A stretch of DNA of 39,365 nt from Polyrhizophydium stewartii (taxonomy: Eukaryota > Chytridiomycota > Chytridiomycetes > Rhizophydiales), in NCBI GenBank assembly GCA_027604665.1, contig JADGIZ010000029.1:1-39365 (forward strand), given 5' to 3'. The translations under genes were made by a program, and so were the position numbers. The notes under the pieces were generated by a model. It saw only the letters and a list, made by a program, of their open reading frames with translations. It was not told the DNA's origin and did not search any database. Shown here piece after piece: positions 1,190 to 39,022 of this stretch (position 1 is the first letter of the stretch; the number at the start of each line of letters is the position of its first letter).

Positions 1190-1233
1190 GATTCCACGCG
1201 GAGCGGGGAATCGCCCCCACAGGGGCCGATTCC
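1190..1233. repeat. Double-hairpin element, X = GATTCC
   Basis: The order is GATTCC (1190-1195), hairpin CGC-GGA-GCG, GGAATC (1207-1212), hairpin GCCCC-CAC-AGGGGC, GATTCC (1228-1233). The two outer six-base words are identical and the middle one is their exact reverse complement. This architecture is shared with the elements at 16363, 23985, 24455 and 27520. It resembles the mobile double-hairpin elements described in mitochondrial DNA of Allomyces and other lower fungi. Confidence 0.75.
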
Positions 1234-3789
1234 TTCCTGAAATTCTGGTATATCAGGTCATTAAATTTCCTTTAGAAAGAGATAGCATAAGTTTGTATGT
1301 TAGAGATGACTAAAATAACTATCTTGAACCTCTCCTTCTTTTATATATAAAATGTTATAACCTTTCTTATTATATGAAATTGGTAATAATAGCGACCCAA
1401 CTAACTTTGGATCATCACTTATTGAATTTGATTTATCCTATAATCTAGTCTTATTTATAATAGAAAAAGGGTAGGTTATCATTGAAATTATGTAGAGGAC
1501 TCTAGGGCTTATCGATCTTTCATTAAGTACCCATCTCTTAGGTTCTATACGCATCTAATAAACCCTCTACTTGCCTATATATTATGACGTCATTCTGTAT
1601 AAAGACCAATGTGTAAATTAGAATTTGTTAAGGAGAAAGTGCGTCAATCTATAATGGGATAAAATGGTCGGTCTGTAGACCTCACTAATTGAGTAGAAAT
1701 AACTTTAGATTTGGCTAAATAGGTTCCTCTAATATATTCCCTTCTTAATTAACCTACGGATCTAACCAATTTGATAAATAATCTGTAAGAAGCTAGTGTA
1801 GGAGAACCCTTAGAACTAGTATATAAATAAAGTATTATAGAATCCAGATGATTAGACTTATTATTAATTAAAGATGAGTTAATAAACCAGGATATCATAT
1901 TATCTTGCTAGGACATAATAAATAGATATGTACCCATTAATTTTCATCTAACCAGTATAAGATAATACAACCTAGAAAGGAGGGTAGACCTTAATTTAAG
2001 GGTATAATTAGCTATGGAGAATCTTGTAAAGCCAGGGAATTAATATAGGATCCAAAACCCTTAGGTATAGAAGAATTGGTATAGAATCAATATTTTATTT
2101 CTCAATTTGGATTATCCAGCTACAATGGATAGTTTAGTTTGTATCTCTTATAACTTTCCCTTTATATATGTATAGTAGAAAACCAGGTAGATACACCCTG
2201 TGGGTTAGAGTTAATAAAATCTATTTAAACCTTTGGTTGGTTTAGTTAATCATCAATTTTTATTCCCATAATATTTCTAACCTTATATATCCAATACAAA
2301 TAAAAGTACAAATAAATGAAATTAGTTGGGTAGGTTAACTTGTATAAATAATTGGCCTACATAGAAATTACCCAGAAGATTGAAAATTAGAACGTAGTGT
2401 ATCCTATAAAGTACACCATGTTTCTCAAATTAGAGCACCTTAATAATTATATATAAGCCTCCCTGGGTATAATAGGTTATTCTTATTCTATCTAGAAATA
2501 GACAGCCTCTCAAATGGATCTTTAGGGGAGGTATATCCTAATTGATAGAGTGTCTATATCCAATGAAGAAGATAGGTTATGTATCTAATGATAGAACCCT
2601 CCTAAATATAAGGTTCTTTCTAAAGTTAGAAATATTACTTTGATTATTAACATTAATAGGTTATCTATAGAGAAAAGATATACCCTAAATAATTTAGACT
2701 TCTCATTTATTCAATTATGCTGTATATTATTGGGAGGACCCTTGTATTAGTTTATTATAAAGTTAGGTACACACTTAATATGTGAAGATAATCAATAGTA
2801 AATTGAGTAGAGATCTATTGTTTAAAGAGAGAAGCTTAGTTATCAATAAAATAATATCTAGTTTTCTAATGGCTAATGTTCAATTATTGGGTAGACAGAT
2901 AATCATCAATTTCTCCTAGATATTTATAATTCGATTACATTTGCCTAATAAGTTTCTTGTGTCCACTTAGATTGATATACGAACCTTAAACTAGGAGGTG
3001 TGTTTTAATCGAAGAGAATTAAGGTTAATTTGGCTTCTAAATAGAGAACCCTCCTTATTCTAATTTAGAATAAACATTTTGTATTGAATAAAAGAAACTG
3101 GGGAGGCCTCACAGTGTATACTCCTATCCTTTATTTCTACTTTTTAATCTTGTATATCTTTATTTAGATACAGAAGACAAGAAGGTAAATATTTGGTAGT
3201 TCAAATTAAGAATCTTTAGATTAATTGTATATATAATAACCCTGCAAGGGGTCAAAAGAGGGATGGTCGGTGTCACCTCCTAGTTTAGAGAATACAATTG
3301 TATGGATCTATTTTATTTTATAATAGGATTTGTATCCTAGAGGTGCTGTATTACCATAGAAAATGATATGTTTTATTGGGTAGGATATATAGATAACTCT
3401 GTAGATTGAGTAGTTAGGCTTATATAATAGAATTCCTGGTGTTCTTTTACATTTGTATAATATACCTTCTTTCTCTCCGCCTCTTTGAGTAGGTTCAGAT
3501 TCATCAATTAGAAATTCTGGGTAGGTTAGTTACTAATCCATCCTATAAGATAAAGGATCTATTTTGACCTCTCTCAATCTATCAATAATTCTAGTTCTTA
3601 TAAGGGAGGTTCTAGTTATTTTTATCTATAAACAAATACCATTAAAATAGAAGAATTGTACACTTCCTCATAAGGTATATTCTTAATTGACCATTTGACC
3701 TCCATCTTTTTCTGATATCCTCTATATTTGGTGTATAGAGCAGCAAAGGGCAAAACAACAGCCAAATAAAAACACCACCTCAAGGCAAC

Positions 3790-4545
3790 CTTCAGCTACG
3801 CACCGGTGCTTTAAGCACCGGGCCTCCTACGGTGCTTGAAGCACCGGACCCCTTTAGGGTCCGTTAGGAGGCCACGCTCCGCTGCGGCCCGCGACGGAGT
3901 CGCTCCAAATCTCTTTCTAGGGGAATACGATGCCTGGGTCTGGGCTATATATCCCATCTAATAATTAGTCGATCCCAACCAGATCATCTAGATTTGGTGT
4001 ATTTCGTTGGTCGCGGGGCAATTCTGAAAGCTTCGAAGCTTGGCCGTGACTAGCCTCTGAAACCTGAAATCGGGCCCTAGCCTGCGCGAGCTGCGCGGAA
4101 AGGGCCCTTACCGGCGACGCCACACCGCTCCGCTGCGTCCTTTTACACTGAGCCACTGGTTATCCCCTATAGAAACCCCATCTAATCAAGAAATTGGGTG
4201 AATTACGCATACGCCAAAAGCTTGGAGCGACGCCCCTCAAAGGGGCGGGCGCTTAAGCGCCCGGCTGCCCTGGAGCCGCAAAAGCTCCGGGCCCGATCTC
4301 TGATCACCGCCCCTCGAGGCCTTCAAGGCCCCCGGATCTCTTCAGATCCGGCGGGGGCGGGCCGGAGCGACGTAGGGTGAAGCCCGGTCGCGGACGCTAG
4401 TAGGAGCCTTTACAAGGCTCCGGTCGCGGAGTGACCGGGGCGCCTGAGGCGCCCCCCCGCCCCTCAAGGGGCGGGCCTCAGAAGAGCTTCTGAGGCGACG
4501 TCGCACCTGTGAGGAGGCTAGCCACACCGCGACTCCTAGCGGGTG
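3790..4545. repeat. Dense mosaic of GC hairpin modules
   Basis: A long run of short palindromes joined head to tail: CGGTGCTTTAAGCACCG and CGGTGCTTGAAGCACCG (about 3799 and 3831), GACGGAGTCGCTCC (about 3893), CCCCTCAAGGGG-type stems (4233, 4451), GGATCTCTTCAGATCC (about 4332), GGAGCC-TTTACAA-GGCTCC (about 4404), a 22-bp palindrome at 4475-4496 followed by GACGTCGC, and a GGTCGCGGAGTGACC stem. Open frames seen across this stretch on either strand are read-through of palindromes, not genes. Modules recur in different orders at 14178, 17265, 17738, 18840, 32745, 36545, 37820 and 39290. Confidence 0.8.
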
Positions 4546-4663
4546 AATACTATGTAGTTGCAAAGCCGATTAGATGGTATTATGATAGCTTCGAAGCCTC
4601 CTAACTTTAGGGTGAAAATGGTTTTCGGAGCAGCGCGCGCCGCGGCGCCCGCTCGATTTCTAG

Positions 4664-4744
4664 CCTGGGTCTGGGCGGGGCCCATCAGAGTGAGCCGAAA
4701 GAGCTTGCTGATTGAGGCGAGACGTATAAAAAGCCAGACCCAGG
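4664..4744 (-). mobile_element. 81-bp element with 11-bp terminal inverted repeats
   Basis: The element begins with CCTGGGTCTGG (4664-4674) and ends with CCAGACCCAGG (4734-4744), a perfect 11-bp inverted repeat. It is an inverted copy of the element at 37584-37664, which has exactly the same length and ends. The interiors are alike but not identical: GGGCGGGGCCCAT is followed by a diverged core containing the complement of TACGTATCGGCTTACTC. A shorter left-end remnant, CCTGGGTCTGG, lies at 3933-3943. No coding capacity; mobility is inferred only from dispersal in both orientations. Confidence 0.7.
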
Positions 4745-4849
4745 AGATAATGACAAATCGCTCATTGAGCGAGTTGGCCCTCTGGGCCGCGACGGAGTCG
4801 CTCCCAATTTACCAAATTAATAAAATATTAGATAAAATGGTCAACTGAA

Positions 4850-5678
4850 AAGCAATCATATAAGCAATCGACTTAGTCGATTTACTAAGTTATTCTGTCC
4901 ATTTTTAGACACTATTTTTGGTAAACACTATTAGATTATCTAGTAGCTGCTAATATTATTAATTCTCTATAAAAACCATTTCAATAGTTAGCTAGGTACT
5001 ATTAATGTAGCTAATATATACTTAAGCTCTGGGAAAGAACTAATCCATAAAGTTAGCAAGTAGTCATTTAGGTTCATTGTAGTAAAATATAATATAACAA
5101 TGGTATTTGATAGGACCTTTTATCTATATTAATCAAATATTGACGGCTCCCTACCCCAGCATTCCGGGCCGCTCTTGTCCGGCCCTTCATTCTCTCGCTA
5201 GCCGCTCCACAGCCGCGTAGGCAAGGCCTTCGGTATATCTTCGCTAAATCGCCGCATTCTCCATGAAGGGGGCTTCAAGCGGGTCTCCCTAGCCCCATCC
5301 AGATACCCGCCCACCATAGGTGTTAGCTATTAGATTAGGAATGTCGGTTTAGGTAATGGTCTTTATTTAAAGGTAAAACTTATAATGGTTTAGGTATTTA
5401 GACTTATTATATCGGTCTTTAGGAATAAATATTGCCAGGGGTAACCAGACACCGGCCGCTTTAAAAGCGGCCTCTAATCAGAAAATGGGCAGAGTTTCAA
5501 TATATTCATCATCTCCATTTTGGGGTATATAAGGGGCGGGCCTTACATAAGTACCCCCGATTCATATTATGTGGTATAGGGTAATTGCTACCTGATTCAT
5601 TAAACTAATCCTCCGCCTATTTATAAAGAAAGGAGCGCTAATGCGCTCCCGGTATATAAAAACCTATGACAATAATAA
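4850..5678. other. Spacer with GC cluster, 5' of the polymerase relic
   Basis: No gene recognised. AT-rich sequence surrounds a GC-rich island at about 5150-5300, which includes CCGGGCCGCTCTTGTCCGGCCC and AGGCAAGGCCTTCGG. A small perfect palindrome, GGAGCGC-TAAT-GCGCTCC (5632-5649), lies just upstream of the polymerase frame, and GCCGCTTTAAAAGCGGC lies near 5456. Confidence 0.5.
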
Positions 5679-6485
5679 GACCAGGGTAGTTCATTATATG
5701 ATGAATTAGCTCCACGTATCAATAGAACAGATCAATGTTATATAAAATGTAACCAAGGCTTTACTAATCTTAATGACAATTATAATAATACTGCTGCCAT
5801 AGAAGTTGATAAAAAATAGACTAATGTAGCCGATCAATTGATGGAACATAAAAGAATTAATTTTGCTAAAACATTTATACCCAATAATGCTAATTACTTT
5901 GAATGGGCCAAAGATACCAATCATTTGAAATGGACTAGAAATATTATTGATGAAAATCATATTGATAGCAAATTTGGACATGATAGACTACATATTACAT
6001 TCAATAATGTTGAAATGAAAATGAATAGCATCACTACTAACCCCAACACTGGAGAAACTATTATTAATCTAAGAGCTTCATTCATTGATACTCATACTGG
6101 TATATTGCATAGAACTAGAGGAGCACTATCTAATATAGAAATTGAGAATGGAGAAATTATTAAATAGGTGAAAAGTTCTAATACTTTGATTAAAGTTCCT
6201 ATATTTAAAACTACTAAAATTGAAGAGGAATATAATAATAAATTTATATTGAAACTTATCCAGGTCTTGACGGTGTTCATGTCCCATATGCCATTGGATT
6301 CTATGAAGCTGGTCTGATACTACCTATTATCCTGGAAAAGATCTTGTATTTATGCTGACTATACTATATATGCCCATAATATGGCTGGATTAGATATACA
6401 CTTTATATAGAAACATCTATGCTCAAAAGTCTCTCTTATAAAAAATAAAGCTGGTGATCTTATCAAAGTGAATCGAATGCAATGA
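5679..6485 (+). pseudogene. dpo: Family B DNA polymerase relic (linear mitochondrial plasmid type), N-terminal and exonuclease part
   Basis: With TAG as leucine, one frame stays open from 5679 past 6240. The first ATG is at 5841, but reading upstream of it (for example DQCYIKCNQGFTNLNDN) also looks coding. Downstream come the proofreading motifs of protein-primed family B polymerases: an ExoI-like YIETYPGLDG followed by VPYAIGFY (about 6245-6305) and an ExoII-like TIYAHNMAGLDIHFI-L-KHL (about 6360-6425), in which the Leu after HFI is a TAG. The first ExoI acidic residue appears as Tyr, since the family has D-I-E. Three frame changes are needed, near 6240, 6310 and 6345, each a -1 shift, and the spacing between ExoI and ExoII is short. 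The frame stops at TGA 6483. I did not find polymerase motifs A, B or C (DxxSLYP, KxxxNSxYG, DTDS) downstream. This fits the relic of an integrated linear mitochondrial plasmid whose C-terminal half is lost or unrecognisable. Identification of the family is firm; functionality is very unlikely. Confidence 0.78.
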
Positions 6486-7468
6486 GATGATACGTAATTA
6501 GCCAGACCAGGTGATTAGACACCGGCTGATGAAGAGAAGACGGACAGATAGGATAGATTATTTGATGTCTATGGGAGTAGGAGACTGAAATAAATGAATG
6601 GTTTTTATTAATACTGTGTATCTACTTCTCATCTTATAACTAGTATAGGCTTTTGATAGTTGTCAAAGTTGATGATAGACTTAGGACATGGTTGTGGTGT
6701 TGAGAGCTACTAGCTATGATTATTTATAAACCTCCTAAGAAAATCCCTCGGTCTATTAAAGCCCTTTTCTGAATGACCAATTCTATCTTATTAGGTTGTG
6801 GTTAATAGAATTCAGTGCGGAGCCCGAATTACCCCTATATTGTTTAGGTTTAATCAGAATTTGACTAATGATTTTCGTAAGGACGTCGTCCGATCAGATC
6901 CCCAAATAAATCAAGGAGGTTATTAGTCAGATAGTCAAAGGCCCAATATGAGTGGTGAGCCAAAGGATTACTATTATCTATCTTACAAATCAATAAGGTA
7001 TCCATTATCCAATTAGTGATCAGGGATCTATCAAATTTTCTTCATTTCGGTTAGCGTCTAGCCCCTAACGGGGGGGCGATTTCTATTAAGTATTTAGCTA
7101 GAAACCTAATAAAACGGTCACCAACTTACAGTGGGTTCAAGTAGTTGATCTATTTCCAAGCGATGCCAATAAAGATCAAGCGACCTTTAAATATTCTTTA
7201 TCAAATCAGATTCGACATGTGTAAGAACATAAGATCAGCTTAGCCAAATTGAGTACTTCCCTAATCATTGAGTTATTGCATCTGCGAGACTGGTGGTAAA
7301 TTGTTACGAGATCTCTAGTCTAATTCTATGCAATCGAAGGTCCTTTATTTGGGTTCTATTAAGATCTATTATAGCTCTAATTACTATTGATAATCCACCA
7401 CCTAAGTGATCTAATATATCAGATCTTCTTTATAATAGGTAGGTCTTCAATATAGACACTCCTACGAA
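6486..7468. other. Spacer downstream of the polymerase relic
   Basis: No intact gene. A frame continuing from the relic (about 6481-6592, TAG as Leu, beginning NEMIRNLPDQVIRHRL) may be further polymerase debris. The sequence TTAGACACCGGCTGA (about 6513) recurs at about 35418. A half-element GAATTC-AGTGCGGAGCC-CGAATT lies at 6808-6830, matching the right end of the element at 21343-21413. The palindrome GTAAGGAC-GTC-GTCCGATC (about 6877-6896) belongs to the GTCC/GGAC family described at 35244. Confidence 0.5.
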
Positions 7469-7840
7469 TCATTGGATAGTTGGTTTATGTATTGTCGATC
7501 TTCTAGATCGAGTTACTATTAGGACCATTAATCTAACAGCAAATTCATTTAATTTGATTTGATGTTTAAATCCACTTAATTCAGCTGTTTGAGCGACTGC
7601 GTGATTAAGTATATGTTTATTAGCAATTTCTTGTTGAACTACAGCACTCATAACTATCCATTCCTTATAATCAACAATCACATAGTTCTAAATAAAATCA
7701 ATACCATATGAGTCTTCTAGTATATTAGCATCTATTATTAAGTAGTCATATATATATTTGATAGGAGTTGCTTTAGTTATTCGTATAGCACAACCTCTAG
7801 TATGATAAGATTTTGTTGACTTGCCAGTGTGAAAAGACAT
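7469..7840 (-). CDS. Hypothetical protein, 123 codons with one TAG
   Basis: Reading the minus strand from ATG at 7840 with TAG as leucine gives an open frame ending in TGA at 7469-7471; it contains a single TAG and no other stop. It starts MSFHTGKSTKSYHTRG and has a mixed, non-repetitive composition. I do not recognise it. A 17-bp dispersed repeat (GAGCGACTGCGTGATTA on the plus strand, 7591-7607) lies inside it and is read as NHAVAQ. Either the repeat was inserted without breaking the frame or the frame is fortuitous. A small GATC-type palindrome near 7496 also lies inside. It sits about 1 kb from the plasmid polymerase relic on the opposite strand, so it could be another plasmid-derived ORF, but nothing proves that. 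Confidence 0.35.
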
Positions 7841-9882
7841 GAATAGAACTGATCATCTAGAAAATGTCTACTATTCCAAACTTTACTGAAAATAGCCTAA
7901 TCACGCAGTCGCTTCAATTCTGATTAAAAGTTTCAAATAATTCGAGAATATTTTAGGAAACCGCTATGAGTAGTTTATAATGGTTTTTTATATGTTTAGA
8001 TTTTTATTAACAATAAGAGCTTTATTTGTATCAGTATATAATCTCATCTTGCTCAGGGGGTTTTGAGGCTCTATTTTGCAAATTGTGAAGATTACATTCA
8101 ACAATTGGGATATCAAATTACTAAATAGACCTCTATAACTATTAACAATTTTACTCTAACTTCTTTGGATAGAAGTGAAACACCTATAATATATAGATAT
8201 CAGTTGTAGGGAGAGATTTATGTTCTAAGATGAAGATCTACTTATTTTCTTTATAAGTCTGGTAAGAAGAACTACCCTACGATCAATAAAACATCTAAAG
8301 ATGTCTTTTAGTGCAATCATAGTTACCTCAAATTCCTAGATAGATTTTGTCGATCGTTTAAGCCATAGAATCCAATAGGCTAAGTAACATGAGCTAAGCT
8401 CCTGGTTGACCTCTGCAGCTATTTTAACCATCAGCTTCGCTGATGCACACCCAGATCATTTTTACATTTCCACTCCCTTTATAACAACTCTTTTTTGAAT
8501 CCCGTCCTTATTAGATGACGTACCATTCTATCTTCACATCAACATAGCCTTTCTACTTATCCTCTTGTGGTTTGGACTATCAATTCCTATCCTTTCGCTG
8601 TGTTGAGTATAAATTGTCTGTTTTTATTCTCACCCAAGCCATCTACCTTTGCCGCTACCCTGTCCTCGACCGCTAAACGATTAAAGTATCAACGTATTAT
8701 CTTTGGAATCGTTATACACTTACCAATAATGTCTTGTGGGCAAGCCGCTGAAACGAGACAAGACTTCATCACAAAGGACCTCTTGAAATTCTATATTTGC
8801 GTATTGAAGGGCAGGGGCCTTTAACGAAATGACTCAAAACTAACTCCCAAGCCTTAGGGTTTCAATTATTAAACGAATGGGACCCGTAGGGTCCTAGTAA
8901 TTGAACGCCAATATAGTGTCCCTCTGGAACATTCTACGAATAAGTCAAATGTTTCTTCTTTTAGTTGGAATCCTCAATTATTGCGTCATGAGTCAGCGGC
9001 CAGAGGCAGTAATTATGTGAGGAATACTTAGTAGCAAGCCATCAGATACAATACCCGGTTTTGGTTGTAGATAATGACTAATGATAAATTATTTATGATT
9101 ATTCTTGCTATAAGAGAGTGCTTAACTAAACACAAGGAACACCTTAAATCAAATCCAATTATCAAGGGATCGAATTGTCTTTAACCACTCTCAGAAATTG
9201 AATTGGTCCAGGGCATTTTTATAGCTATTAAACCCGGGCATTTATGATGGGACGAATTGAAAATCAAACAAGCATTCCAATGCTCGGAACTCACATTCCT
9301 CTTATAACACGCATTTTCCGGGACAAGCCCGCCCGGTCAAAAGAGACAAATAGGAATTAAAGATTCCCTCAGATCGTATAATGAATAAACTTGGCACATG
9401 AAAAACCTCAGAAGATGCTAGAATTGCGTCATCCAGAGATCAATCATATCAATAGAGCATAGAAGTAGCTTGTTCTCATTGTACAAGTTTGACGCAGAAC
9501 TCGCTCAGCCATTGACTCTAATCGATTATTAGGTCGGAAAGAGTAAGACTTCCTGAATATTCCTTAGTCTTTGGACTCCATACAAGTTAAATATCCACAA
9601 TGAATTTGATAAACCTAAGAGGATCGCGAAGCGATGGAAACCACCATACATTGGACCTAATCCTCTCACTATGCTCAAACGTTTGGAGAATTGTTTGACG
9701 AGTACTTACTTCAGTTTCTAAGATTTAGCTGAGCTAACCTCATTTTTAGGTTGTTCCTCACTAGAAGGCCCAACTCATCTTCACATGATTTGAGAGTGTC
9801 CGCACCATAGGTGCGCATATTAACTTGAACTTGATACGGATCGAGTCTTTGACAATTAAAAGTAGCGGCCAAGTTATTTTGA
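7841..9882. other. Mixed-composition spacer
   Basis: About 2 kb without a recognised gene. Composition is less AT-rich than block I. It holds an inverted copy of the GAGCGACTGCGTGATTA repeat (7898-7913) and small hairpins such as CATCAGC-TTC-GCTGATG (about 8430). A plus-strand frame at 8567-8824 and a minus-strand frame at 9711-9914 are open, but have no recognisable motif and no support beyond length. Confidence 0.45.
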
Positions 9883-10197
9883 ATAAAAGTATGGGTACCC
9901 GGTAATTTGAGCAACCTGAATAAGCCTGATTACCCCCTGATTTACGAGACTGTAGGTCCTATAAGAATTTCAAGTCAACTCAATTTGATAGATAGAGTGG
10001 TATATGATCATAACCCAGGTAACATAGCCTCACAAAGTGAGGCCAGGATTGAGCTAAGGAATCGATTGTCGGAGGTAGCTGGCCTACTAATAGTTATTAT
10101 TAACTCACTATCCCTCTATATAACGCTTAATGGGAATGTACATAGCCATTGTCATGAGGGCTACGGGTAGTGCCTCATAGTAGAATCGCAAGATTGA
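9883..10197 (+). CDS. Doubtful hypothetical ORF
   Basis: An open frame of about 105 codons if TAG is leucine, closed by TGA at both ends. It has no convincing start codon; TTG at 9907 is the nearest candidate. It includes the stretch LIYETVGPIRISSQLNLIDR, then runs into the first unit of the 493-bp tandem duplication. No family recognised. It may be chance or a fragment of a decayed gene. Confidence 0.2.
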
Positions 10198-11026
10198 AAT
10201 GAAACTCAACCACATAATGTAATGACTGGTTGTTAAAAGTAAGATGATATACTTACTATCCCTGCTAAAGGGTAATTAGGTAGGTCAACCTTGAATAATC
10301 TAAAGTTTCCTAACATCCCGATGATGGATGAAACGGTTGGTCCAAATAACCGACTAGCTAAAGCTGGTGAAGATTCCTATATTAAGATTGCGGTAAATGA
10401 AACCAACTGTTAGAAGTTGGGTGATATTCTAAGCCTAAGACACATGACATTTTATTATCCATTATGTTGATTATTCTTAGACATAGTGCAGATTATTATG
10501 TGTTATAGAAGCATATTGTTGTTTCTAAAGTGAGGCCAGGATTGAGCTAAGGAATCGATTGTCGGAGGTAGCTGGCCTACTAATAGTTATTATTAACTCA
10601 CTATCCCTCTATATAACGCTTAATGGGAATGTACATAGCCATTGTCATGAGGGCTACGGGTAGTGCCTCATAGTAGAATCGCAAGATTGAAATGAAACTC
10701 AACCACATAATGTAATGACTGGTTGTTAAAAGTAAGATGATATACTTACTATCCCTGCTAAAGGGTAATTAGGTAGGTCAACCTTGAATAATCTAAAGTT
10801 TCCTAACATCCCGATGATGGATGAAACGGTTGGTCCAAATAACCGACTAGCTAAAGCTGGTGAAGATTCCTATATTAAGATTGCGGTAAATGAAACCAAC
10901 TGTTAGAAGTTGGGTGATATTCTAAGCCTAAGACACATGACATTTTATTATCCATTATGTTGATTATTCTTAGACATAGTGCAGATTATTATGTGTTATA
11001 GAAGCATATTGTTGTTTCTAAAGTGA
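10034..11026. repeat. Perfect tandem duplication, 493-bp unit x 2
   Basis: Unit 1 runs 10034-10526 and unit 2 runs 10527-11019. By eye the two units are identical. The junctions share the 7-bp word AAAGTGA, found at 10034, 10527 and 11020. This is what is expected from slippage or microhomology-mediated duplication. Identity of the two units implies a recent event or ongoing gene conversion. The unit itself has no recognised gene. Confidence 0.95.
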
Positions 11027-11090
11027 TAATGATAATGATAATGATACTGATACTGATAGTGATAGTGATAGTGAAATAGATAATGAATAA
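11025..11090 (+). repeat. GAT-based hexanucleotide repeat (acidic if translated)
   Basis: Directly after the 493-bp duplication the sequence consists of GATAAT x3, GATACT x2, GATAGT x3, then GAAATAGATAATGAA and TAA. Read in the GAT frame it would encode an Asp-rich tail (DNDNDNDTDTDSDSDS...) ending in a stop. A TAA lies immediately upstream in that frame, so no full protein is visible. It may be a simple repeat or the acidic end of a lost gene. Confidence 0.8.
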
Positions 11091-15489: not shown

Positions 15490-16927
15490 CAAATAAATTA
15501 TTATATTATAATTAAAGAATAAAATACATTTAGAGTTAAATTATAGCTTTCTTTCTAATTTAGATAGGTGACATAGACTTGGTTTACTCTATATAATCTT
15601 GTATTTCTACCGGGGAAGAAGATCTGGATAATAAAAATTCCTATAGATTGGCGCGACTAGTCGCGCTCATCGCCCCTCCGGGCCGATTTATTGGTTCTGA
15701 AGGGTTGCAACCATTCTTATAAATTAAAGACAAGAGATTTTATTAGAAAGATGATAGAAGCAGATAGCTTCACACTGGATCCTATAAAAGTTTTGAATTA
15801 GATTATGATTTTATTTGGTTAACTTATCTGAAGAATTTATTGAAATATACAGGATATATTATTTAAGTAAAGGATTATTTATATAATTTGGAATCTATCC
15901 CAATTGTAAATCTTTGGATCCAATAATAAAGTTGAGACTTCATAATCTAATCTGGATCTTTCTACATTCTTTATAGGGTATAACCCACTTAGCCTTTTTA
16001 TCATGGATCGGTTACAATTTTATCATTCGTAATATCTATTATTGGTCTATTTTATCTGGTCTTATACTATTTATTAGGGTCTATTCCACTTTTCCTATAA
16101 TTTGAATAGAACTGGAGAGTACCCATATACTTAATAAGAGAATCCCAATTAAATTAGTTGGTTAGACTACCAGAAAATTCTGATATTTGAGATCAACTCG
16201 TAGAATCCAATATATAGGTAATTATTTGTCTAATAGGGTATTCTATACATTATCTTGCTATAAAAAATGAGGAGAGTACACCCTCTTAGGTTAAGTGTAG
16301 GTATGTATCTTCTCAGTTTAAAAATCTAACCAATTCTTTCTTTTTAATAAATATATTGGCACAATTCGCCCGGAGGGGGAATTCCCGCTACGCGGCAATT
16401 CTAAAGTAAAGGAGTGTACCGTACTATCAATTTTAGATGTAACAATCTTAGATTAGGATTCAGAACTTTTCTAGTATATCCTTCTATTATAGGTTATAAA
16501 AAATACAATTAATTAAGAGAAGTAAAATCTATCCAAGGTAACCTTCATATTTTAATAAAAGAATAGGAGAAATCTTTTAGATAAATTAATTAGACTACAA
16601 AGTTAAACTATATATAAGAAAGAAATTAGCTATGGATTTATGGTTGGGTACTCACCAATTGGATCAGAGAATATAAACTAAGGATTCTCACCTAATTTAT
16701 CTTTTATAGTAAACAGATATATCTCTATATTCTAGTTGGGTTCATTTTTATATAACTAGCTTCTCCTCTACTTAGCTGTCTCTTCTCTTTGGATCTATAA
16801 TTATTGATAATTAAATAAAGTGTTCTATCCCAATTGACCTCCTGGAATTATATGAATTAAAGGATATAGAAGTTAGAGAACTTAAAAGAAAGAAGATTGT
16901 AGTATGTTTCTCGGTCTAGACTGAGGT
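15490..16927. other. AT-rich spacer, block II
   Basis: Same composition and word usage as block I. No gene recognised. It contains a GC island at about 15648-15688 (CGCGACTAGTCGCG and CGCCCCTCCGGGC) and the double-hairpin element at 16363-16401. Confidence 0.6.
16363..16401 (+). repeat. Double-hairpin element, X = AATTC
   Basis: AATTC (16363-16367), hairpin GCCCGGAGGGG, GAATTC (16379-16384), hairpin CCGCTACGCGGC, AATTC (16397-16401). The same three-word, two-hairpin layout as at 1190. The first hairpin is shared with 21343-21413. Confidence 0.75.
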
Positions 16928-17830
16928 GCACATATTAGGTCGTCGTGGAGTCGAATCAGAGATTCGATTCCACCTCAATTTGTGGTTTTTATCAATAGAT
17001 GGAATGTATAGCCATGGGTCTGACTAGGTACGTATCGGCTTACTCGGCAAGCTCATTCGCCTCACTTTTGGGGGCGCGTCAACGACCCAGGCTAGATGGA
17101 TGAGGTTACAATTTGGCTTCAATCAATGAGGAGGCTACCAACAAAATACCATTCTTTTCTTACGGTCTTTTCTGATATCCCGCTATATACACCATCTAAT
17201 ATAGAAATAAAGAGGAGGTAATCCAGAGGCAAAAAATGGACAATCAACATTTTAGTGAAAATCTCCGTCGCGGCCGATCTTTGATCGTCGCTAAAGCGAG
17301 CTGACGCGACGCCACACCGTGGCCGGCCCTTTGGCCGACCCCCTCGAGGCCTTGAAGGCCTCCGGATATATCCGTAAGGGGGGCTGACGCGACGCCACGC
17401 ACGCTAGTCCGATTTTTATTATAAATTACTGTAGTGTTTATTAATAGTTGCTCCACTACAATAATCTGATAGAATAGCAGCTCGTATGAGCTGCCACTCG
17501 CCCCAAGGGCCGATTTTCTCTATATGCTCTGTAGAGTTCTTAAACCTTAATCTAGTATTGAAATACTTCAAATTTAATATAATCATTACATTCAGATCCC
17601 ATTATTGTTTAACCTAAAAATAGGACGCAGCGGAGCGGTCGTGACTAGCCTCCTGTGAGGAGGCGACGTCGCGGCTCCGAATCACACTAAAACTAGATCA
17701 CTTCAGAAAGAGGGTATCTCAAATTCCACAATATCAGCCCCATCGAAGATGGGGGGCGACCGGCCCCCCTTAAGGGGGCCGCCGGTGCTTCAAGCACCGG
17801 GCCTCAGAAGAGCTTCTGAGGCGACGTCGC
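16928..17830. repeat. GC-hairpin rich region
   Basis: A series of palindromes separated by short AT-rich runs: GTGGA-GTCGAATC-AGA-GATTCGATTCCAC (about 16945), the element at 17013-17091, a composite at 17265-17405 (GGCCGGCCCTTTGGCC, CGAGGCCTTGAAGGCCTCCGG, GGCTGACGCGACGCCAC), the CAGCTCGTATGAGCTG stem (about 17479), GCCTCC-TGTGA-GGAGGC (about 17648), and a composite at 17738-17830 with CCCCATCGAAGATGGGG, GGCCCCCCTTAAGGGGGCC, GGTGCTTCAAGCACC, a 22-bp palindrome at 17801-17822 and GACGTCGC. The minus-strand frame 17244-17456 is read-through. Confidence 0.75.
17013..17107 (+). mobile_element. Diverged copy of the 81-bp inverted-repeat element
   Basis: Core TACGTATCGGCTTACTCGGC and AAGCTCATTCGCCTCACT are identical to the copy at 37584-37664. 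The terminal repeats have decayed: CATGGGTCTGA on the left and CGACCCAGG on the right. Both copies are followed by the same flank, CTAGATGGATGAGGTTA. The flank is therefore either part of the mobile unit or evidence that the copies arose by duplication rather than insertion. Confidence 0.7.
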
Positions 17831-19178: not shown

Positions 19179-21342
19179 CCTAAATAATTCCTCAACAGTT
19201 TTCAGCAAATATGTATAGAAATTGTGGGTCAACACTTTTAGATTACCATCCCCTATTATTTAACTTGTTTTTGACTTTGATTGATATTACCATTATTACT
19301 TAGGCTTATCAGTAATGGCCTACAGGATATTCGGATATTGGATTCCATTCAGTTGACTAACTCTAATAATTGCTCATCTAGGTACATCTGGTCTAATAAA
19401 TAATAGTAGTCTAACCCTAAATTGATTCTAATGAGTTTGGATTAATACCAACCTAAGTAGTCAAATAGTACTAATCCGAGGGTAAGCTGGAAAATAATAT
19501 AAAGAGATAATTTGAGCTCTACCTTATTATTAAGTAACTAGATTGCTTTCTTAGGGCGAACCGATAAATTACATCCTACATACTTGTGAAACTAGTTTAG
19601 GTTAAGGAAGTCAGACTGCTTTCCCAATAGTTCAAACTAAATCTGGATACGTTTCAGCTTAGATTCCAACCAATGAAATTAACAATCAGAAATCGTGCAG
19701 ATCTTCTTAGATGATTCCGGAGCTTTCTAAAAAGTTTCCTAATAAACTTATATGAACATAGATATTCGTGATCAACATTTGCTAGAACTTGTCAAAATTA
19801 GGATCTCTTCAATTGGTTCTAAACGTGCATGACTGGAATTTGTCACTGCGATTAACAATGGATTTATTTCTTTGTTACGATCCCATTATTTATTTTCATG
19901 TCAAACGATCTATTCTCTTAAATTACTTTACATTCATAATACTATCACGCTGTCGCTCTTTATTTGGATTATACATTTATCCTTATTTTCAATGAATCTG
20001 TTGCCTATACAATCATCTCAAATTGTTTCATGTAGAAATCGACTAATGGAGCAATCAACAACTTGCGTCAGGATGGTCAATTTCCAAAATTGCGGAGCCA
20101 CCCATCAATTTGCTGCTGCTTGAATAGTGATGATTTACCGTGAGCCGCTTTGCTACAAGTTAGTTATACACTTAATAACCACTATTATTAAATTTCTGTA
20201 GAGTTAACTAGATAAAGACATATGTTTACACGTTCTCGCAGGGTTAGATTCACTCCTCAAAGCTTTGCCTATGCTTCAATTACTTAAATACAGAACTCAA
20301 CCAAATCAGGTGGGCCCGAAGGAGCATGGTCTCATTAAAATCTACCAACGAAATTCAGGGAAGGGTTTATACAAAAAGGGCTCATGTATGGTCATATTGC
20401 CAAAGGTCAAGAGCTGTTGATAAATCCTCAATTGAGGTGCAGAGAGTTCTATTACTCTTTTAAAGACTCCAGCTAGAGGCCATCTCTCTGGCCGCCCCTC
20501 TCTTAGTCTAGTCAGTCAACCCTTGCTATCATTTAGGAGGGCGCCTCATAACAATAACCCAAAGACCTGCCGACGGGAGTAGCGAAAAAGGCTAAGATCT
20601 GTCACAAACTGGCTAGAACTTTTTATGCTTGATAAATCAGTTGTGACATATAGTGTGAAAATTCATAAATAGACGCTCTGCTTAATTTCAAAGACAAATA
20701 GCTTCGCTCTGAGTCAAAGTAACGCTTAGCTACAAGAGTAACTGCCAGGGTCGTTCTGATTTCAAGATCTACGATCTTTCGCTTTGCTGTGATTCAAAGA
20801 GGCACAACGTTCCAAAGAGGCACTTCGAAGGTCGCCCAATAAATAGTTTATAGGCTTCGAACTAAGAATTCTTCGCTGTGTCAACGTAATACTGAGCGCA
20901 ACCGTAGCCGCACGTTAGTTAGATCTCGGCGAATCTTTTATTGCAGGCCATAATCTTACCAATAGTCCATTAAGATAGTATGAGTCTCGTTCTGGTTCAT
21001 CTTGATAGAGAGATTTAGGAATAGCACCCTGAGATAGCATCTCATCTTGGCTGCCTGCTATTATTGAACTCCATTATGAAACCCCATTGTACGGTAATTG
21101 ATTTAGTCGTATAGGTGTTAACCAAATGGCAAAGACGCAAGCCGCGGGTATCCAGAGGGATCGCATGCCCACTTGAAGATCCCCATGTTCAAAAGGTCAT
21201 TTAGGGTTATACCTTTCTACCCTGGCCCCTTTAGGAGGGCGTCCTACAAATCAACTCACTCATTTTAGAACTGGAAAGGAGGATGGGTAGAAAGTACTAT
21301 GGTCCATAATACCCAATATTTCTTAAGGGAAAGGAGATGGAT
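19179..21342. other. Spacer, possible gene debris
   Basis: About 2.2 kb with no recognised gene. Overlapping plus-strand frames at 19789-20123 and short frames near 19260-19440 are open but carry no motif I can name. Searches by eye for conserved rRNA words (530 loop, decoding site, sarcin-ricin loop) and tRNA T-loops were negative. Confidence 0.4.
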
Positions 21343-21413
21343 AATTCGCCCGGAGGGGGAATTCGGGCCCTACAGGGCGAGTCATTGAAGTGACTCCGCT
21401 ACGCACTGAATTC
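21343..21413 (+). repeat. Triple-hairpin element, X = AATTC
   Basis: AATTC-GCCCGGAGGGG-GAATTC is shared with 16363-16401. It is followed by GGGCCCTACAGGGC, a GAGTCA-TTGAAG-TGACTC hairpin and CGCTACGCACTGAATTC. It looks like the two-hairpin element with an extra hairpin nested in its right half. Its right end matches the half-element at 6808-6830. Confidence 0.7.
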
Positions 21414-21523
21414 TCTTAGTTCATGGCAAACATAGACATTGAATAAAATTAACATCTCAAATTGATTTCAACTCGACAAATCCATATAAGTAAGACATTT
21501 GAACAACTAATAGTAAAACAATA

Positions 21524-21892
21524 TTAGAAGCGGCAATAGCATGCATATAGTGATTCGCTCAAATTGACTAATTCTTTATCACCTGAAATTAATGCAGGAA
21601 TTAGTAGCAGAAAAAAAGGCAATGAAATAAGAACAAGAATGAATAAAATCTTTAAAGGACTTTCACAACTATTAATAAAGCTAGTGGAGCTGAATGTCTT
21701 TCTATCCAATTTTGCATAGATAGGGGTAATAAAATTATTTATTTTTAATGAGTCTACTGCTTTGGCTCTATTATATATTCTTCCTCTAAAAACGAGGTCG
21801 GGGGAAATGAATATAACCTGGTCATATAATTCAGTGAGTCTTTGAATACCCCTTAGAAATATTACTAAAGAATTTAATAGGCAAACTATTGA
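21524..21892 (-). CDS. Hypothetical small membrane protein ORF
   Basis: The minus strand is open for 122 codons, from just after TAA at 21893-21895 to TAA at 21524-21526, with no TAA, TAG or TGA inside. No ATG starts it; the nearest candidate start is TTG at 21707-21709. The reading includes VFRGRIYNRAKAVDSLKINN and a hydrophobic stretch ILFILVLISLPFFLLLIPAL compatible with one membrane span. I do not recognise the family. In AT-rich DNA one such frame in a window this size could occur by chance, so confidence is low. Confidence 0.3.
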   Translation of the reverse strand, partial: SIVCLLNSLVIFLRGIQRLTELYDQVIFISPDLVFRGRIYNRAKAVDSLKINNFITPIYAKLDRKTFSSTSFINSCESPLKILFILVLISLPFFLLLIPALISGDKELVNLSESLYACYCRF

Positions 21893-23984
21893 TTACATAA
21901 ATGAATTAGATCCAAAGAAATGAGCACCATGACTAATAATATCAGTTTTATCCCCAATAAATTTGTAGTGATTGAACCATTATGAATAAAGATTTGTATT
22001 AAACCCCTCCTAAATGATTTAGAACCTAGTAGATTATTTGAGGAGTCCTCCCTTGATATATCTAGTTCAACCTACCCAAGGGACTTTACGTTAGAATAAA
22101 TTGATTCTATAATTCTATATCTAACCAATTCTGCTCCTCAGATAATCAAATATAGGAGTACACGCGGGTATATAAGGTCAAAACCAAAGAAATATCTAAG
22201 TTGAGACACATTTCTATTCTAGAACCAGCAAATTGATTAGAATAAAAGATCTGGTCAAATTGTTAGTGTAACACCTCAACTTTCTAGTTTTCTTTCTCAT
22301 ACAGCTTCTAGGATAGACATCATCTTGGGGGACCCTCCTTCTATAAGTCCAAACTAGTATGTCAATTATCTTCTTTTTGTTAAGGAGTCATTTATTTTAG
22401 ATGATAAACCGAGGGGTGTTAGAGAGGAAATACATCATTAATTTATTCCAAACTATTTAGGAGGTTCTTAATCAATGTGTACGATCAACTCTCTAGTGTA
22501 TATATATAGGGTGATCTTAAGCACTTTTATTTAAGGATATTCTCTAGCCCTTTCTTATATCCTATACTTTGAATCAAGAAATAGGAGGTTAATTATAAAC
22601 AGTAGTTTAGCTCCAATAGATAACACCTCATTTTGGTATGACATCTATCCATAATTTAGTTATTAAAGATCTACTATTGGTTATATAATAAGTCAGTATA
22701 GTTTTACATAATATAAGCTGTAAATAGGTAGGTCAAACCGACCCATTAGACAATTAGAAATAGACATAAGAAAGATGGATTGCCCAAAAAGTGTATATTC
22801 TCCCTTTGGATCTATCTGTTTTGTTTACTTGTTTCTCTTTCATATGGTTATGGATTAATATACAAGAAGGGTGCAGCCCGAATTAGGCTATCTATATTCT
22901 TTATTTATTATCAGGATACAAATTTAATTGAACCTCTCTGTAAGTATTTCCTATTCTTAAACTAGTCATTTATTTCCTTTGGATCTTGCCCTGGTAACAC
23001 ATATTGTAAGATTTAATAGAAGATTAGACAACTTAATTAATTAAGATAAGAAATTTACTTAGTAATGAACTGGATCTTAGAATTGAGGATATAGTATATT
23101 TCTATAAAAATTAGGTCCAACTAATAGAGATTAAAGTAATATAACTTTTAATGTTTGGAATCTCCCTGGGTAGGTGTAAGAAACTTAGAATAGAAAAGGG
23201 CTAGGGAAACTGATACAAAGATTTACTTAAGCTATTATATTTATCCATAGAAATTGGTCACCTTTCTTATAATAAATCTCTTCCATAATAATCGCTATAG
23301 AACCTCTTTTTTATCTCTAGATGATATAGGATTACAACAGGGGATGTACCCCTATCTTTAATTATTTAGTTTATAAGGATCTATGGGTAGAGAGAACATC
23401 CATACTTTAGAAGACCCTATCGATTAGATTAAATCTGTATCTTACTTAGGTTTAGGAAATTAAAAAGAATAATAGTTTAATAGATGGAGTTTCTCTAGAT
23501 CTAATGGATTAATATCTTATTCTTCCTGGGTTCTATTCTATAATAATTTGTGTGGTATACCTACTTCAATTTCTCCATGTGTTATTAAATAATATCTTCT
23601 ATAGAAGGGCTATCTAATCTCCCTCTAATTCTCATGGATAATCAGAATATAGATTAATTAGGTTTGATTCTTTTATTCTAGTCTAAACTGTTATCTACAT
23701 CAAATTAAGGTAATACAGCGTAGAGATCTAGGCCATCAAATCTATTATAGAAACCTTAGAATATCTAATAGTAAATACGTGTTTATTTCTTTACCTTTAT
23801 TCTTACCTATCATTGAGTATTACCTCCTGTATATTAGAATAGAAGATTAGAAGGGATTATGTAGAGAAATAATACCTCATCACAATGAGAGGTCTCCCCA
23901 ATAAAATAAATATTGCAACTTGAGCGACTGCGTGATTATTACTAAATTTCCCTTTAGAAAACGATCATTTTATAAAAATTAGTA
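21893..23984. other. AT-rich spacer, block III
   Basis: Same character as blocks I and II: AT-rich, CpG-poor, with GGGTAGGT near 23168 and TAGGTAGGTCAAACC near 22726. No gene recognised; the plus-strand frame 22780-22965 is short and unsupported. A GAGCGACTGCGTGATTA repeat lies at the right end (23922-23938). Confidence 0.55.
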
Positions 23985-24024
23985 GAATCGGCCGTGAGGG
24001 CGATTCCCACTGACGTGGTGAATC
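23985..24024 (+). repeat. Double-hairpin element, X = GAATC
   Basis: GAATCG (23985-23990), hairpin GCCGTGAGGG, CGATTC (24001-24006), hairpin CCAC-TGAC-GTGG, GAATC (24020-24024). Outer words are direct repeats and the middle word is the reverse complement. The flanks are AT-rich spacer. Confidence 0.75.
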
Positions 24025-24308
24025 TAATGATTTGAGTGCATCAAGTCTTGATACCATATAATTAACTTTATTATAAATGATACAACCAAAATGATCTAGA
24101 AGAATTAGAATTATTTATTATGGCTTCTTGAGGGACATCAAAAAGTTCGTACAGTATAAAATTCATGACCTTGTCCTATTGGATATTTAAGTAAATTACC
24201 AAACTATTTAGAGGAATAAATAAGACCACCTAATTCATTTCTTTCAGAATTATTAATAATGACTACAATAATTTTGAGGTATCAGCAAAGGTTAATTCCT
24301 GATGAAAT

Positions 24309-24340
24309 CGTGGAGGTGAACGCAGTGAGCGTCCACCTCG
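24309..24340 (+). repeat. GTGGAGGTG palindromic element, short form
   Basis: CGTGGAGGTGAACGC-AGT-GAGCGTCCACCTCG. The outer stem CGTGGA(C)GGTG/CACCTC is the same as at 25019 and 27896, but the inner core is a short GCAGTGAGC rather than ACCGCGGGGCGGGC. Confidence 0.75.
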
Positions 24341-24454
24341 ATGTTAATTGATATTCTGGTTAGAAAGGGGTTTATTAAGATTAAGGAAATCATTAGAGGA
24401 ACAATGATAGTAGGATGATCAGTTAAGCATAGATGACGGATCCAATAGAAATTA

Positions 24455-24494
24455 GAGTTGCCGCGTCCGCGGGAACTCGCCCTTCGGCCGAGTT
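24455..24494 (+). repeat. Double-hairpin element, X = GAGTT
   Basis: GAGTT (24455-24459), hairpin GCCGCGTCCGCGG, AACTC (24474-24478), hairpin GCCCTTCGGCC, GAGTT (24490-24494). It is an inverted relative of 27520-27560, which uses AACTCG as its outer word and has the two hairpins in opposite order. Confidence 0.75.
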
Positions 24495-25018
24495 TTCATG
24501 GAGTGATATTCGGGATTTGCCCGTAGCTAAAAGGGAGGCAGATAGACGGGGGTGCTGAATACTATATAATTAAGAAGAGAAATAACAAGGTTTTATGATC
24601 ACAAATGAAAGATGCCTATCAAGCTAGTCTGCCCCCGATCTTACGAATCTATTAAAAACACTAGCTTCAGTCATTAATCCAGGTGTAGTGAGACAGCACT
24701 ATCTTCTAAATCTCCACTACATAGATCAATTACAGTAATAATGACGAGACAACCAACACCATCTAAATCTAATCAACAATCATATTTGCTGACAAAGATC
24801 ACGTAACTAATTTACAAGCCCTAATCATGAATTCCTAGCAATTCAGCCTTTTGTAACCTATTCTGCTTCAGAGCACCCTGTCTGGCTATTTACGCATCAT
24901 CTCATTGCATTGCATTCGATTCGCTTTGATGGGCCCGCCCGCGACCTGGTGCTCACTCTTTTACCGCTACTAGTCTTTACCCTATTCTAGCTCCAATAGA
25001 TGGTATAAATTAAATGAT

Positions 25019-25059
25019 CGTGGAGGTGAACGCACCGCGGGGCGGGCACGTCCACCTCG
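25019..25059 (+). repeat. GTGGAGGTG palindromic element, long form
   Basis: GTGGAGGTGAACGC, core ACCGCGGGGCGGGC, then ACGTCCACCTCG. By eye the element is identical to 27896-27935, and in inverted orientation matches 13884-13921 closely. Confidence 0.8.
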
Positions 25060-25084
25060 AAGAAATCATTAATGCCGAATTCGA

Positions 25085-25143
25085 TCGAGCCATCGCCCCC
25101 ATTGGAGGCTAGTTGATGGGCTAGAAGGATTAAATGAATAGAC
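25085..25143 (+). repeat. 59-bp dispersed repeat, copy 1
   Basis: TCGAGCCATCGCCCCCATTG through GAATAGAC matches 27453-27511 over 59 positions with one difference (TAAATG versus TACATG). It contains an imperfect CCATCGCCCCC/GATGGGC pairing. Unlike most repeats here it is not a simple palindrome. Confidence 0.85.
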
Positions 25144-25804
25144 ACTACAGAGTTAATGGGTAAACCATCATAAGCATTGCTAAAGGGATGAGTAATCCTT
25201 ACTACAACAATTGATAAACGATCAGACTGAATGTTTCTGTAATGGCTATTGTTTATTTATGGCTTGAGTACAAGGTGAATCACACGTAAGTGGGACAGCG
25301 TAGCTATGAGTGAAAGGTTTCAATTGATATTAACAATTCCATGGATTTTGAGGTTAGTTGGATAGATCTAATCCATGCCAAAGGCATGTCATTATGAAGT
25401 TAATATGTGAGATTAATCTACAGTGGAATCCATTGTTGAATCTCTCAACTAGTGTTACCCCCACTCTATAGAGTGGGCAAATTAGTACTTGATAATTAGA
25501 AAGGAGAGTGTTTATTCCATTCAAAGCTAGTCGATGGAAGTCTAACCTTTAAGGGTGAAAGATTCAAAGGATCAATTGAATCCAAGAAGTAATAACCATT
25601 AATAGTCCAGAGTCAATAAATGATTGACATCCTATGTGTATGCTTAAAGGTTACAAGAAGTAGAACCAATTGAGTGATTTACCAATGGCTAGGTAAGGTG
25701 ATCATGTTTTCACCTTACTAAACGTAAGCACAAATTCTCAAATCCAAGGATAATAGAAGAGTAAATGAACCCATGAAACACAGGATATTTACCAATGAAG
25801 GTTA

Positions 25805-26414
25805 GAACAGTTCCAGTCAGCTTCGTTTACTGTTAAATATATTTATTATAAGGGAATTGATAAACATAGTAAGCCAAGGAAGAAATTTCAAAATAAAGGA
25901 TTCCAATGCTTCGTATTCAACGTCAAGTAACTTTCTAATTATGGGTGGAATGCAAAGCATGATGTTAACTCTAAAGATCAAACTATCCGTCGAAGACAAG
26001 ATCAAGTGTCACGTATTCAATCCCAATATTTGAACCCATTTTAGACAACCCTGAAGAAAGAATCTGGAATATCCCAGCTTCGCTGGTCAATGGTGAGGCG
26101 AATGCTTGGATCACCAAGTTCTAGTATTAGTTTCCATTGGCTTTATGCGGTAAGCGTTTATCACCTTCCATTTTAAGGATGAAGCAGGGAGTTGCCAATA
26201 GGAAATAATCTCACTCTTATGCATAAACAATATTTGAGTGGGCTTATCAAAAATCATTATAACATTAGTTGACACTCCAATTCTGAATGAGACTCTGTTG
26301 CCTTCTATCATTGGCTTGTGTATTCAATTTAGTTTATAGAAGATGTTTAACAGATTTTTCCATTGCTTACTTAGAAACCTCAATTGTTTAAGAATTTCCA
26401 TTGGGATCACCTTT
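25805..26414 (-). other. 203-codon minus-strand frame interrupted only by TGA
   Basis: Read on the minus strand in the frame whose triplets start at positions 2 mod 3, no TAA or TAG occurs from 26414 down to 25805. TGA occurs five times (near 26326, 26111, 26087, 26018 and 25817). TAA closes both ends. The part at 26111-26311 is repeated exactly at 26657-26857 because of the 546-bp duplication. Nothing in it is recognised. If TGA were tryptophan it would be a single ORF, but the cox1 exon uses only TGG and gives no support. The left-end TAA-containing palindrome GATCACC-TTTTA-GGTGATC (about 26405-26423) looks inserted. Confidence 0.3.
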
Positions 26415-27119
26415 TAGGTGATCACTTGGTTGATCGATATAGTTGCATAAGTATCAGCATCCTAGGGGTCATTCTACAAACGATCCAATACTATTTTGTG
26501 ATTAGATCAGTGGATCCATTTATGAATTTATCCAACTAGTCGTTTGAAAGATTCTAAGAATTCTGTTACCAATATTTGAACCCATTTTAGACAACCCTGA
26601 AGAAAGAATCTGGAATATCCCAGCTTCGCTGGTCAATGGTGAGGCGAATGCTTGGATCACCAAGTTCTAGTATTAGTTTCCATTGGCTTTATGCGGTAAG
26701 CGTTTATCACCTTCCATTTTAAGGATGAAGCAGGGAGTTGCCAATAGGAAATAATCTCACTCTTATGCATAAACAATATTTGAGTGGGCTTATCAAAAAT
26801 CATTATAACATTAGTTGACACTCCAATTCTGAATGAGACTCTGTTGCCTTCTATCATTGGCTTGTGTATTCAATTTAGTTTATAGAAGATGTTTAACAGA
26901 TTTTTCCATTGCTTACTTAGAAACCTCAATTGTTTAAGAATTTCCATTGGGATCACCTTTTAGGTGATCACTTGGTTGATCGATATAGTTGCATAAGTAT
27001 CAGCATCCTAGGGGTCATTCTACAAACGATCCAATACTATTTTGTGATTAGATCAGTGGATCCATTTATGAATTTATCCAACTAGTCGTTTGAAAGATTC
27101 TAAGAATTCTGTTACCAAT
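26023..27119. repeat. Perfect tandem duplication, 546-bp unit x 2
   Basis: Unit 1 is 26023-26568 and unit 2 is 26569-27114, identical by eye. A CCAAT word is present at 26023, 26569 and 27115, so the event looks microhomology-flanked like the 493-bp duplication. Both copies contain the same minus-strand 66-codon frame and a CCAGC-TTC-GCTGG hairpin. Confidence 0.95.
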
Positions 27120-27452
27120 TATCAATATCCAAACATGTTGATGGATCGATAAATCTCTTAATAGTTTAGGAATCACCTAATCAGTAGTACTCTCTGAATA
27201 TTGTATACTGGAGCCAATCAGGTGCAACTACTTGTTTGCCATCCAATCCCTATTTGTATACCGAACCATCATTTGGAATCTTCTTTGTGATGTCATGATA
27301 AACTGCCTCAGTGATCTGAATTTCCAAACATCTTATGAAATAACTCAATAATAGCAACCTTATTTAAAGATGGCATATCCACCAAAGGACAATAAATTCT
27401 CATTCAATAATTTAGATTAGGAGTTTAAGCTTACTCATTTTTGCCATGATCT

Positions 27453-27511
27453 TCGAGCCATCGCCCCCATTGGAGGCTAGTTGATGGGCTAGAAGGATTA
27501 CATGAATAGAC
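27453..27511 (+). repeat. 59-bp dispersed repeat, copy 2
   Basis: Partner of 25085-25143, in the same orientation about 2.4 kb away. The double-hairpin element at 27520-27560 starts 8 bp downstream of this copy but not of the other. Confidence 0.85.
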
Positions 27512-27519
27512 TGGATCAC

Positions 27520-27560
27520 AACTCGGCCTCAGGGCGAGTTCCCGCATCCGCGGCAACTCG
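27520..27560 (+). repeat. Double-hairpin element, X = AACTCG
   Basis: AACTCG (27520-27525), hairpin GCCTCAGGG, CGAGTT (27535-27540), hairpin CCCGCATCCGCGGC, AACTCG (27555-27560). Six-base outer words are perfect direct repeats; the middle word is their exact reverse complement. Confidence 0.78.

Positions 27561-37970: not shown

Positions 37971-39022
<1,052 letters not shown>

Follow-up and report, generated by a model that had tools for sequence, protein, structure and literature searches.

Short GC-rich elements made of two adjacent hairpins are dispersed in the mitochondrial DNA (mtDNA) of the chytrid Polyrhizophydium stewartii, and five of them lie in the stretch analysed here, called the window, which is the whole of contig C29 (39,365 b) in an assembly of 12.86 Mb and 690 contigs. 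Each consists of a five-base word X, a first hairpin (h1), the reverse complement X' of that word, a second hairpin (h2) and X once more. At two kinds of repeated target, all within this same genome, the element is inserted 3' of its left word, which is retained from the target; the element itself brings X' and the right word, and these are passed on within subfamilies. The reading that we favour, and to which we give about an even chance, is that the word pre-exists at the site, that insertion occurs 3' of it and that X' acts as the pairing guide.

Five elements and a three-word rule

A strict scan of the window (five-base X, its exact complement, then X again, each spacer holding a GC stem of 3 bp or more) returns exactly five matches, at 1190-1232, 16363-16401, 23985-24024, 24455-24494 and 27520-27559. 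These are the five elements of the original prediction and no others, and its description of them as double-hairpin elements holds.

1190..1232, minus strand: element 1, word GAATC, with a near copy at C39:2032-2074; on the plus strand GATTC 1190-1194, hairpin 1195-1207, GAATC 1208-1212, hairpin 1213-1227, GATTC 1228-1232
16363..16401, plus strand: element 2, word AATTC; X 16363-16367, h1 16368-16378, X' 16379-16383, h2 16384-16396, X 16397-16401
23985..24024, plus strand: element 3, word GAATC; X 23985-23989, h1 23990-24001, X' 24002-24006, h2 24007-24019, X 24020-24024
24455..24494, minus strand: element 4, word AACTC read on the minus strand, as in element 5
27520..27559, plus strand: element 5, word AACTC; X 27520-27524, h1 27525-27535, X' 27536-27540, h2 27541-27554, X 27555-27559

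The pattern withstands the shuffled-sequence control: in 300 block shuffles of the window, 100 for each block size, the mean number of matches is 0.03 with blocks of 20, 0.02 with blocks of 40 and 0.04 with blocks of 80, each shuffle yielding 0 or 1 against the five observed. A looser scan over 211,735 b of the assembly finds 52 matches, AT-rich and other non-family ones included, against 6-21 in 12 shuffles with blocks of 40. Elements 1 and 4 being reverse-oriented, the five copies read alike share the body X–GGCC..GGGC–X'–CCCGC..GCGG–X (element 2 starts with GCCC, and element 3 has CCAC..GTGG) and carry three words, GAATC and AACTC twice each and AATTC once. The idea that every copy has a different X therefore has to be given up, and AACTC recurs in 24 anchored copies of the wider family (some of them tandem duplicates), mostly at unrelated sites. 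The word had been described as having five to six bases. Five are constant; a six-base X was rejected, as the sixth base at 1190 fails in the close copy C39:2032 (GATTCA / GAATC / GATTCT) and that at 27520 is a G of the body paired with a C of the body.

To go beyond the window we used 249,022 b in 82 segments of the same assembly, including 40 short stretches picked as mitochondrial-looking; these data cover part of the 37 contigs, 1.16 Mb together, that have these repeats. Two genome-wide pattern searches gave 285 places against 192 for a reversed control and 199 against 165 for the control, with many chance matches in the rest of the assembly; about the first 100 matches per pattern were listed, so that the family set is a lower bound in which other forms of h2 are under-counted. 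Anchoring on the h2 motif, with no condition on X, identifies 61 copies, and in a set of 51 well-matched copies there are 49 distinct flank pairs, which is the dispersal at unrelated sites known from mitochondrial double-hairpin elements (DHEs); the GC-rich body with two hairpins is likewise that of DHEs. Of the 61 anchors, 52 have at the fixed position a right word exactly complementary to X', 51 have the left word somewhere within 25 b, and 44 have both. Permuting the words among copies lowers these figures to means of 12.1 (right), 11.3 (left) and 9.9 (both, with a maximum of 18 in 2000 permutations). Two GGATC copies (C32 and C196), which the count reads one base out of frame, were scored as failures, C1:4057 is cut by N, and C10:32518, which matches neither side, may not belong to the family. 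We attach no P value to these counts, since copies have common ancestors: C2:1381, C20:45823 and C133:54, for instance, look like a single one.

The three words covary, as had been anticipated from their consistency within copies: 26 of 33 unique canonical bodies obey the rule fully, with 8 words. Variation and covariation concern positions 1-4, a pattern of compensatory change in helices that is also a mark of mitochondrial DHEs; position 5 hardly varies, with C everywhere but in a single left word. Unchanged h2 stems and loops are found with different words (AACTC and AACCC, GGGTC and CAATC, GAGTC and AATTC), and therefore all three words have changed in these cases while the hairpin did not. 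The right word deviates in five copies (C3:60780, C611:1063, C3:7524, C42:17352 and C20:24753), in all of which the left word still matches X'; C3:60780, for instance, reads AAATC / GATTT / CAATC from left word to right word. As predicted, either hairpin can extend its stem by X, giving two mutually exclusive folds, usually with one mismatched position (G-G in h1, C-C or C-T in h2) where the X stem joins the core stem. With RNA parameters, the energies are -9.7 (h1+X) and -11.4 kcal/mol (h2+X) in one AACTC body, -15.1 and -13.5 kcal/mol in one AACCC body.

The hairpins themselves are sometimes rearranged. In an AACCC element at C260:15621-15662, h2 lies in inverted orientation between X' and X, as though recombination had used the words as its sites. 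In three copies (C42:25134, C412:5012 and C31:27434) the first hairpin is swapped for a GGTGCTTGAAGCACC cluster (GGTGCTTTAAGCACC at C31), joined in a run of G, and there are AATTC elements with one hairpin replaced or exchanged. Recombination between hairpins, including chimeras with another GC cluster, thus seems to be active.

Two repeats as empty and occupied targets

Whether a single X is present before insertion, the check that the original prediction called for, can be read at two kinds of repeat of which some copies are occupied and others are not; at both the answer is positive, for X or a near match of it. Unoccupied copies of both lie in the window, with no strand assigned:

4667..4741: larger hairpin repeat with GGGTC ends, both ends unoccupied and then followed by TG
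4867..4881: small hairpin repeat ATCGAC-TTA-GTCGAT, unoccupied; relatives elsewhere hold AACTC-type elements
37587..37661: larger hairpin repeat with GGGTC ends, both ends unoccupied and then followed by TG

The larger repeat has GGGTC...GACCC ends around a variable interior (a further copy, at about 17016-17100, was recognized by eye), and several copies are nested inside a CCATCTAAT...ATTAGATGG inverted repeat. Its ends are of the kind CC(A/T)GGGTC, and unoccupied ends have GGGTC once. We listed 40 exact GGGTC ends with chosen continuations and dropped one, C39:11332, that did not look like a copy of the repeat. Ten of the others continue with TA and 29 with TG or AG; elements sit at 4/10 of the former (C17:38632, C3:12053, C628:226 and C3:26412; 4/11 had C39:11332 been kept) and at 0/29 of the latter. 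All four of these elements, each at GGGTC^TA (the caret marking the point of insertion), have GGGTC as their X, and in all four occupied copies the far end of the repeat is still present beyond the element; over the whole listing, a simple motif located a far end for only 21 of the 40 ends. The 8 bases that precede the left word contain GGGTC in none of 59 elements. A fifth GGGTC^TA end, C412:8194, was considered as an empty site and rejected, as it is a damaged element adjoining an intact repeat end. The five empty GGGTC^TA ends carry T before the word, and the occupied ones at C17 and C628 carry A; of the other two, the left part of C3:12030 is damaged and reads as A before the word, and C3:26389 is chimeric on its left.

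The small repeat, ATCGAC–loop–GTCGAT, is present in 32 intact copies in the fetched DNA. An empty copy at C98 reads GATCGACTT^TAGTCGATTAATATT, and an occupied one at C17 reads GATCGACTT-h1-GAGTT-h2-AACTC-TAGTCGATTAATATT. The C285 element also sits in this repeat, and the C611 element in a related form with GACTC. At these sites the left word, GACTT or GACTC, is that of the target, while X' (GAGTT) and the right word (AACTC) are the element's own; therefore the added unit is h1–X'–h2–X, of 34-45 bases, the left word staying the target's own. The original prediction that X may be copied from the target is borne out for the left word and contradicted for X' and the right word. Its alternative, that paired changes are kept by selection or conversion, probably holds for the pair that the element brings with it, X' and the right X; conversion, though possible, is not needed.

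The flanks of the family at large point to a preferred target. From 64 motif rows, 59 have no more than two mismatches in the right word, and 51 no more than one per side. The latter give the 49 distinct flank pairs, of which 39 have TA after the right word (background after seven of the words, 0.13). The left word is preceded by A in 35 pairs, by C in 12 and by G and T in 1 each (background for A, C, G and T 0.29, 0.18, 0.21 and 0.31). The difference between A and T before GGGTC, which was noticed afterwards, fits this general preference for A or C. For the five elements of the window, the predicted empty sites, each with a single word, would read AGAAAATGTTA-GATTC-CTTCCTGAAATT (1190), ATATTGGCAC-AATTC-TAAAGTAAAG (16363), AAAATTAGTA-GAATC-TAATGATTTG (23985), ATAGAAATTA-GAGTT-TTCATGGAGT (24455) and GACTGGATCAC-AACTC-GAGTCGATTA (27520). 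Scanning the 249 kb for joined flanks returned, self and tandem-duplicate matches aside, best matches with at least 7 mismatches in 32, mostly 9-13, which resemble noise.

Proposed mechanisms: a guide, a template switch or a switchable RNA

We can now ask what makes the three words agree. In the favoured reading, a mobile non-coding family would insert 3' of a word already present, usually before TA, the target being roughly A/C-X^TA. X', between the hairpins, would pair in turn with the target word and with the element's own 3' word, and in so doing would both pick the target and mark the element's end. Because X' would pair with both words, the three would agree, and an altered X' would send the element to another word. 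We infer this guide role because subfamilies retain one word each across many sites and because the left word fits X' in the copies where the right word deviates.

Several observations weigh against such a guide. The putative pairing of X' with the end words, predicted from its complementarity to both, would be loose, the left word fitting X' imperfectly at C17, C285, C611:2444 and C1:4291. Because the empty sites lie in repeats, where composites may have been copied together, they represent perhaps 1-3 events at the small repeat and perhaps 2-4 at the larger one, and of the five empty GGGTC^TA ends three belong to copies occupied at their other end. In the flank set, the position of the left word was chosen by best match, a choice that tends to raise agreement. 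Within the window, the left word of element 1 is preceded by G and GA follows element 5, whose right flank, GAGTCGATTAAT, resembles the small repeat, while its left flank (GGATCAC–AACTC) does not fit it. Finally, the Y1 (HUH) transposase PF01797 has no match in the 12.86-Mb assembly, which is possibly incomplete, by a search that was positive in 5/14 controls.

The main rival is template switching at X, where microhomology would do the work of the guide: during repair or replication, a strand ending in X would jump to an element at X, copy h1-X'-h2-X and jump back at X. The word would then be homology and nothing else, X' being conserved since the hairpins matter for something else. This accounts for the same junctions at all examined sites, including those at GACTT targets where left is target and right is donor, and it is in keeping with the apparent activity of recombination seen in the inverted h2 of C260:15621, the three chimeras and the AATTC hairpin replacement. 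It leaves unexplained, however, the joint change of X' and X in 8 words, as well as the preference for TA (none of the 29 listed GGGTC ends without TA is occupied), and we consider it rather unlikely. Still less probable, in our view, is that a whole X-h1-X'-h2-X unit moves, inserting at A/C^TA, with words kept equal by selection for a bistable RNA or by hairpin-templated conversion. Both hairpins do extend by X with comparable energy in six folded bodies, X covaries in all three places, and insertion of a whole unit flanked by TA would also suit most flanks. Yet it would leave an extra GGGTC at the larger repeat, where none is seen, so that whole-unit insertion with TA as sole target was rejected there, and the left AACTC is missing at GACTT sites. 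That all of X, X' included, is rewritten from the target at each insertion is very improbable: the left word is indeed the target's at the repeats, but words are constant within subfamilies at many sites (the 24 AACTC-type anchors), and GAGTT and AACTC are retained at GACTT and GACTC targets. As for chance, or an artefact of GC clusters, its likelihood is negligible, since no shuffle of the window went beyond one match.

Relatives, genomic setting and meaning

Paquin and colleagues (Paquin et al. 2000) are said to have described DHEs in the mitochondria of Allomyces. Mitochondrial DHEs measure about 26-79 bp, and those of Allomyces nest. From the portions of the accounts available to us, the present family is like the DHEs of Allomyces and fission yeast in being short, GC-rich, two-hairpinned, dispersed in mtDNA and apparently mobile; unlike what those portions report, it has the X/X'/X rule, the pre-existing X^TA and a left word supplied by the target (PMC10085805, PMC2800124). 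The Allomyces elements lack flanking duplications, which the sponge paper, in the part consulted, takes as a reason to suspect RNA (PMC2800124). Here, a reverse-transcriptase-like reading frame (C31:34091-34414), probably mitochondrial because of its two in-frame TAGs, lies about 540 b from the element at C31:34955, so that an RNA route is open. The GC clusters of yeast mtDNA, as far as the excerpt goes, are also mobile GC palindromes with short target words whose hairpins merge and shuffle, but the abundant ones are flanked by fixed AG or ACT repeats, with no internal complement of a variable word in that excerpt (PMC4478555).

The closest logic is that of the bacterial IS608, of the IS200/IS605 family. 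According to the sections seen, IS608 inserts precisely 3' of a short word that is retained as the left flank, its two ends carry cleavage words that pair with guide words next to hairpins, an altered guide redirects insertion and the base after the cut matters (PMC5934647). The same sections give it a TnpA transposase, two separate guides and two different end words (PMC5934647). In our family, insertion at the two repeated targets is likewise 3' of a word kept on the left. By contrast, one X' would serve both ends, which carry an identical word. The family stands outside IS200/IS605, because no Y1 transposase was found in the assembly. Reverse splicing of group I/II introns (IBS-EBS) also relies on pairing between an internal complement and a target word immediately before the insertion point. 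Unlike these introns, the family has about 40 bases, leaving no room for an intron core, and Rfam at gathering score has no family anywhere in the window.

An internal complement of a variable flanking word is not mentioned in the portions consulted of PMC2800124, PMC10085805, PMC5910586, PMC4478555 and PMC7218506. The words hairpin, palindrom, GC-rich and repeat element do not occur in the Synchytrium mtDNA paper (PMC6131824). Among the titles and abstract openings listed from the literature, in which subscription papers are mostly not covered, none describes such a complement, and this is weak evidence of novelty.

The window has a cox1 exon (38564-38941) containing a single in-frame TAG, which table 16 translates as leucine, presumably a sign of a chytrid-type mitochondrial code; further COX1 pieces on C98 and C4 mostly have in-frame TAG as well. 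The pieces are scattered over C29, C98, C4 and C61, the first part being present on both C29 and C4. Among the proteins listed by a search with COX1, identity reaches 83%. ARAGORN, with the bacterial code, finds no tRNA in the window. G+C ranges from 0.31 to 0.44 across 48 fetched stretches of at least 1.5 kb. Mitochondrial GC hairpins are common to the 37 contigs (C1-C4, C10, C17, C18, C20, C21, C29, C31, C32, C35, C39, C42 and others), and the 1.16 Mb, a sum over whole contigs that were sampled in part, would amount to one giant mitochondrial genome or to more than one. Tandem duplications, each about 0.5-0.8 kb long, are visible in the window at about 10033-11020 and 26022-27118 (by eye only), and those at C42:21429/22250 and C98:1861/2449 each take in a double-hairpin element. 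One AACTC-type pattern scanned over viral contigs gave no match.

A pre-existing word matched by an internal complement is a concrete, testable rule of target choice for the spread of GC hairpins in organelles. We put forward only tentatively that this is a protein-free element of about 40 bases with a programmable target, in which a mutated internal word may give rise to a subfamily of new target specificity. If insertion is indeed guided by pairing, the family would be an organelle counterpart of guided transposition of the IS608 type, in some 40 bases of non-coding DNA.

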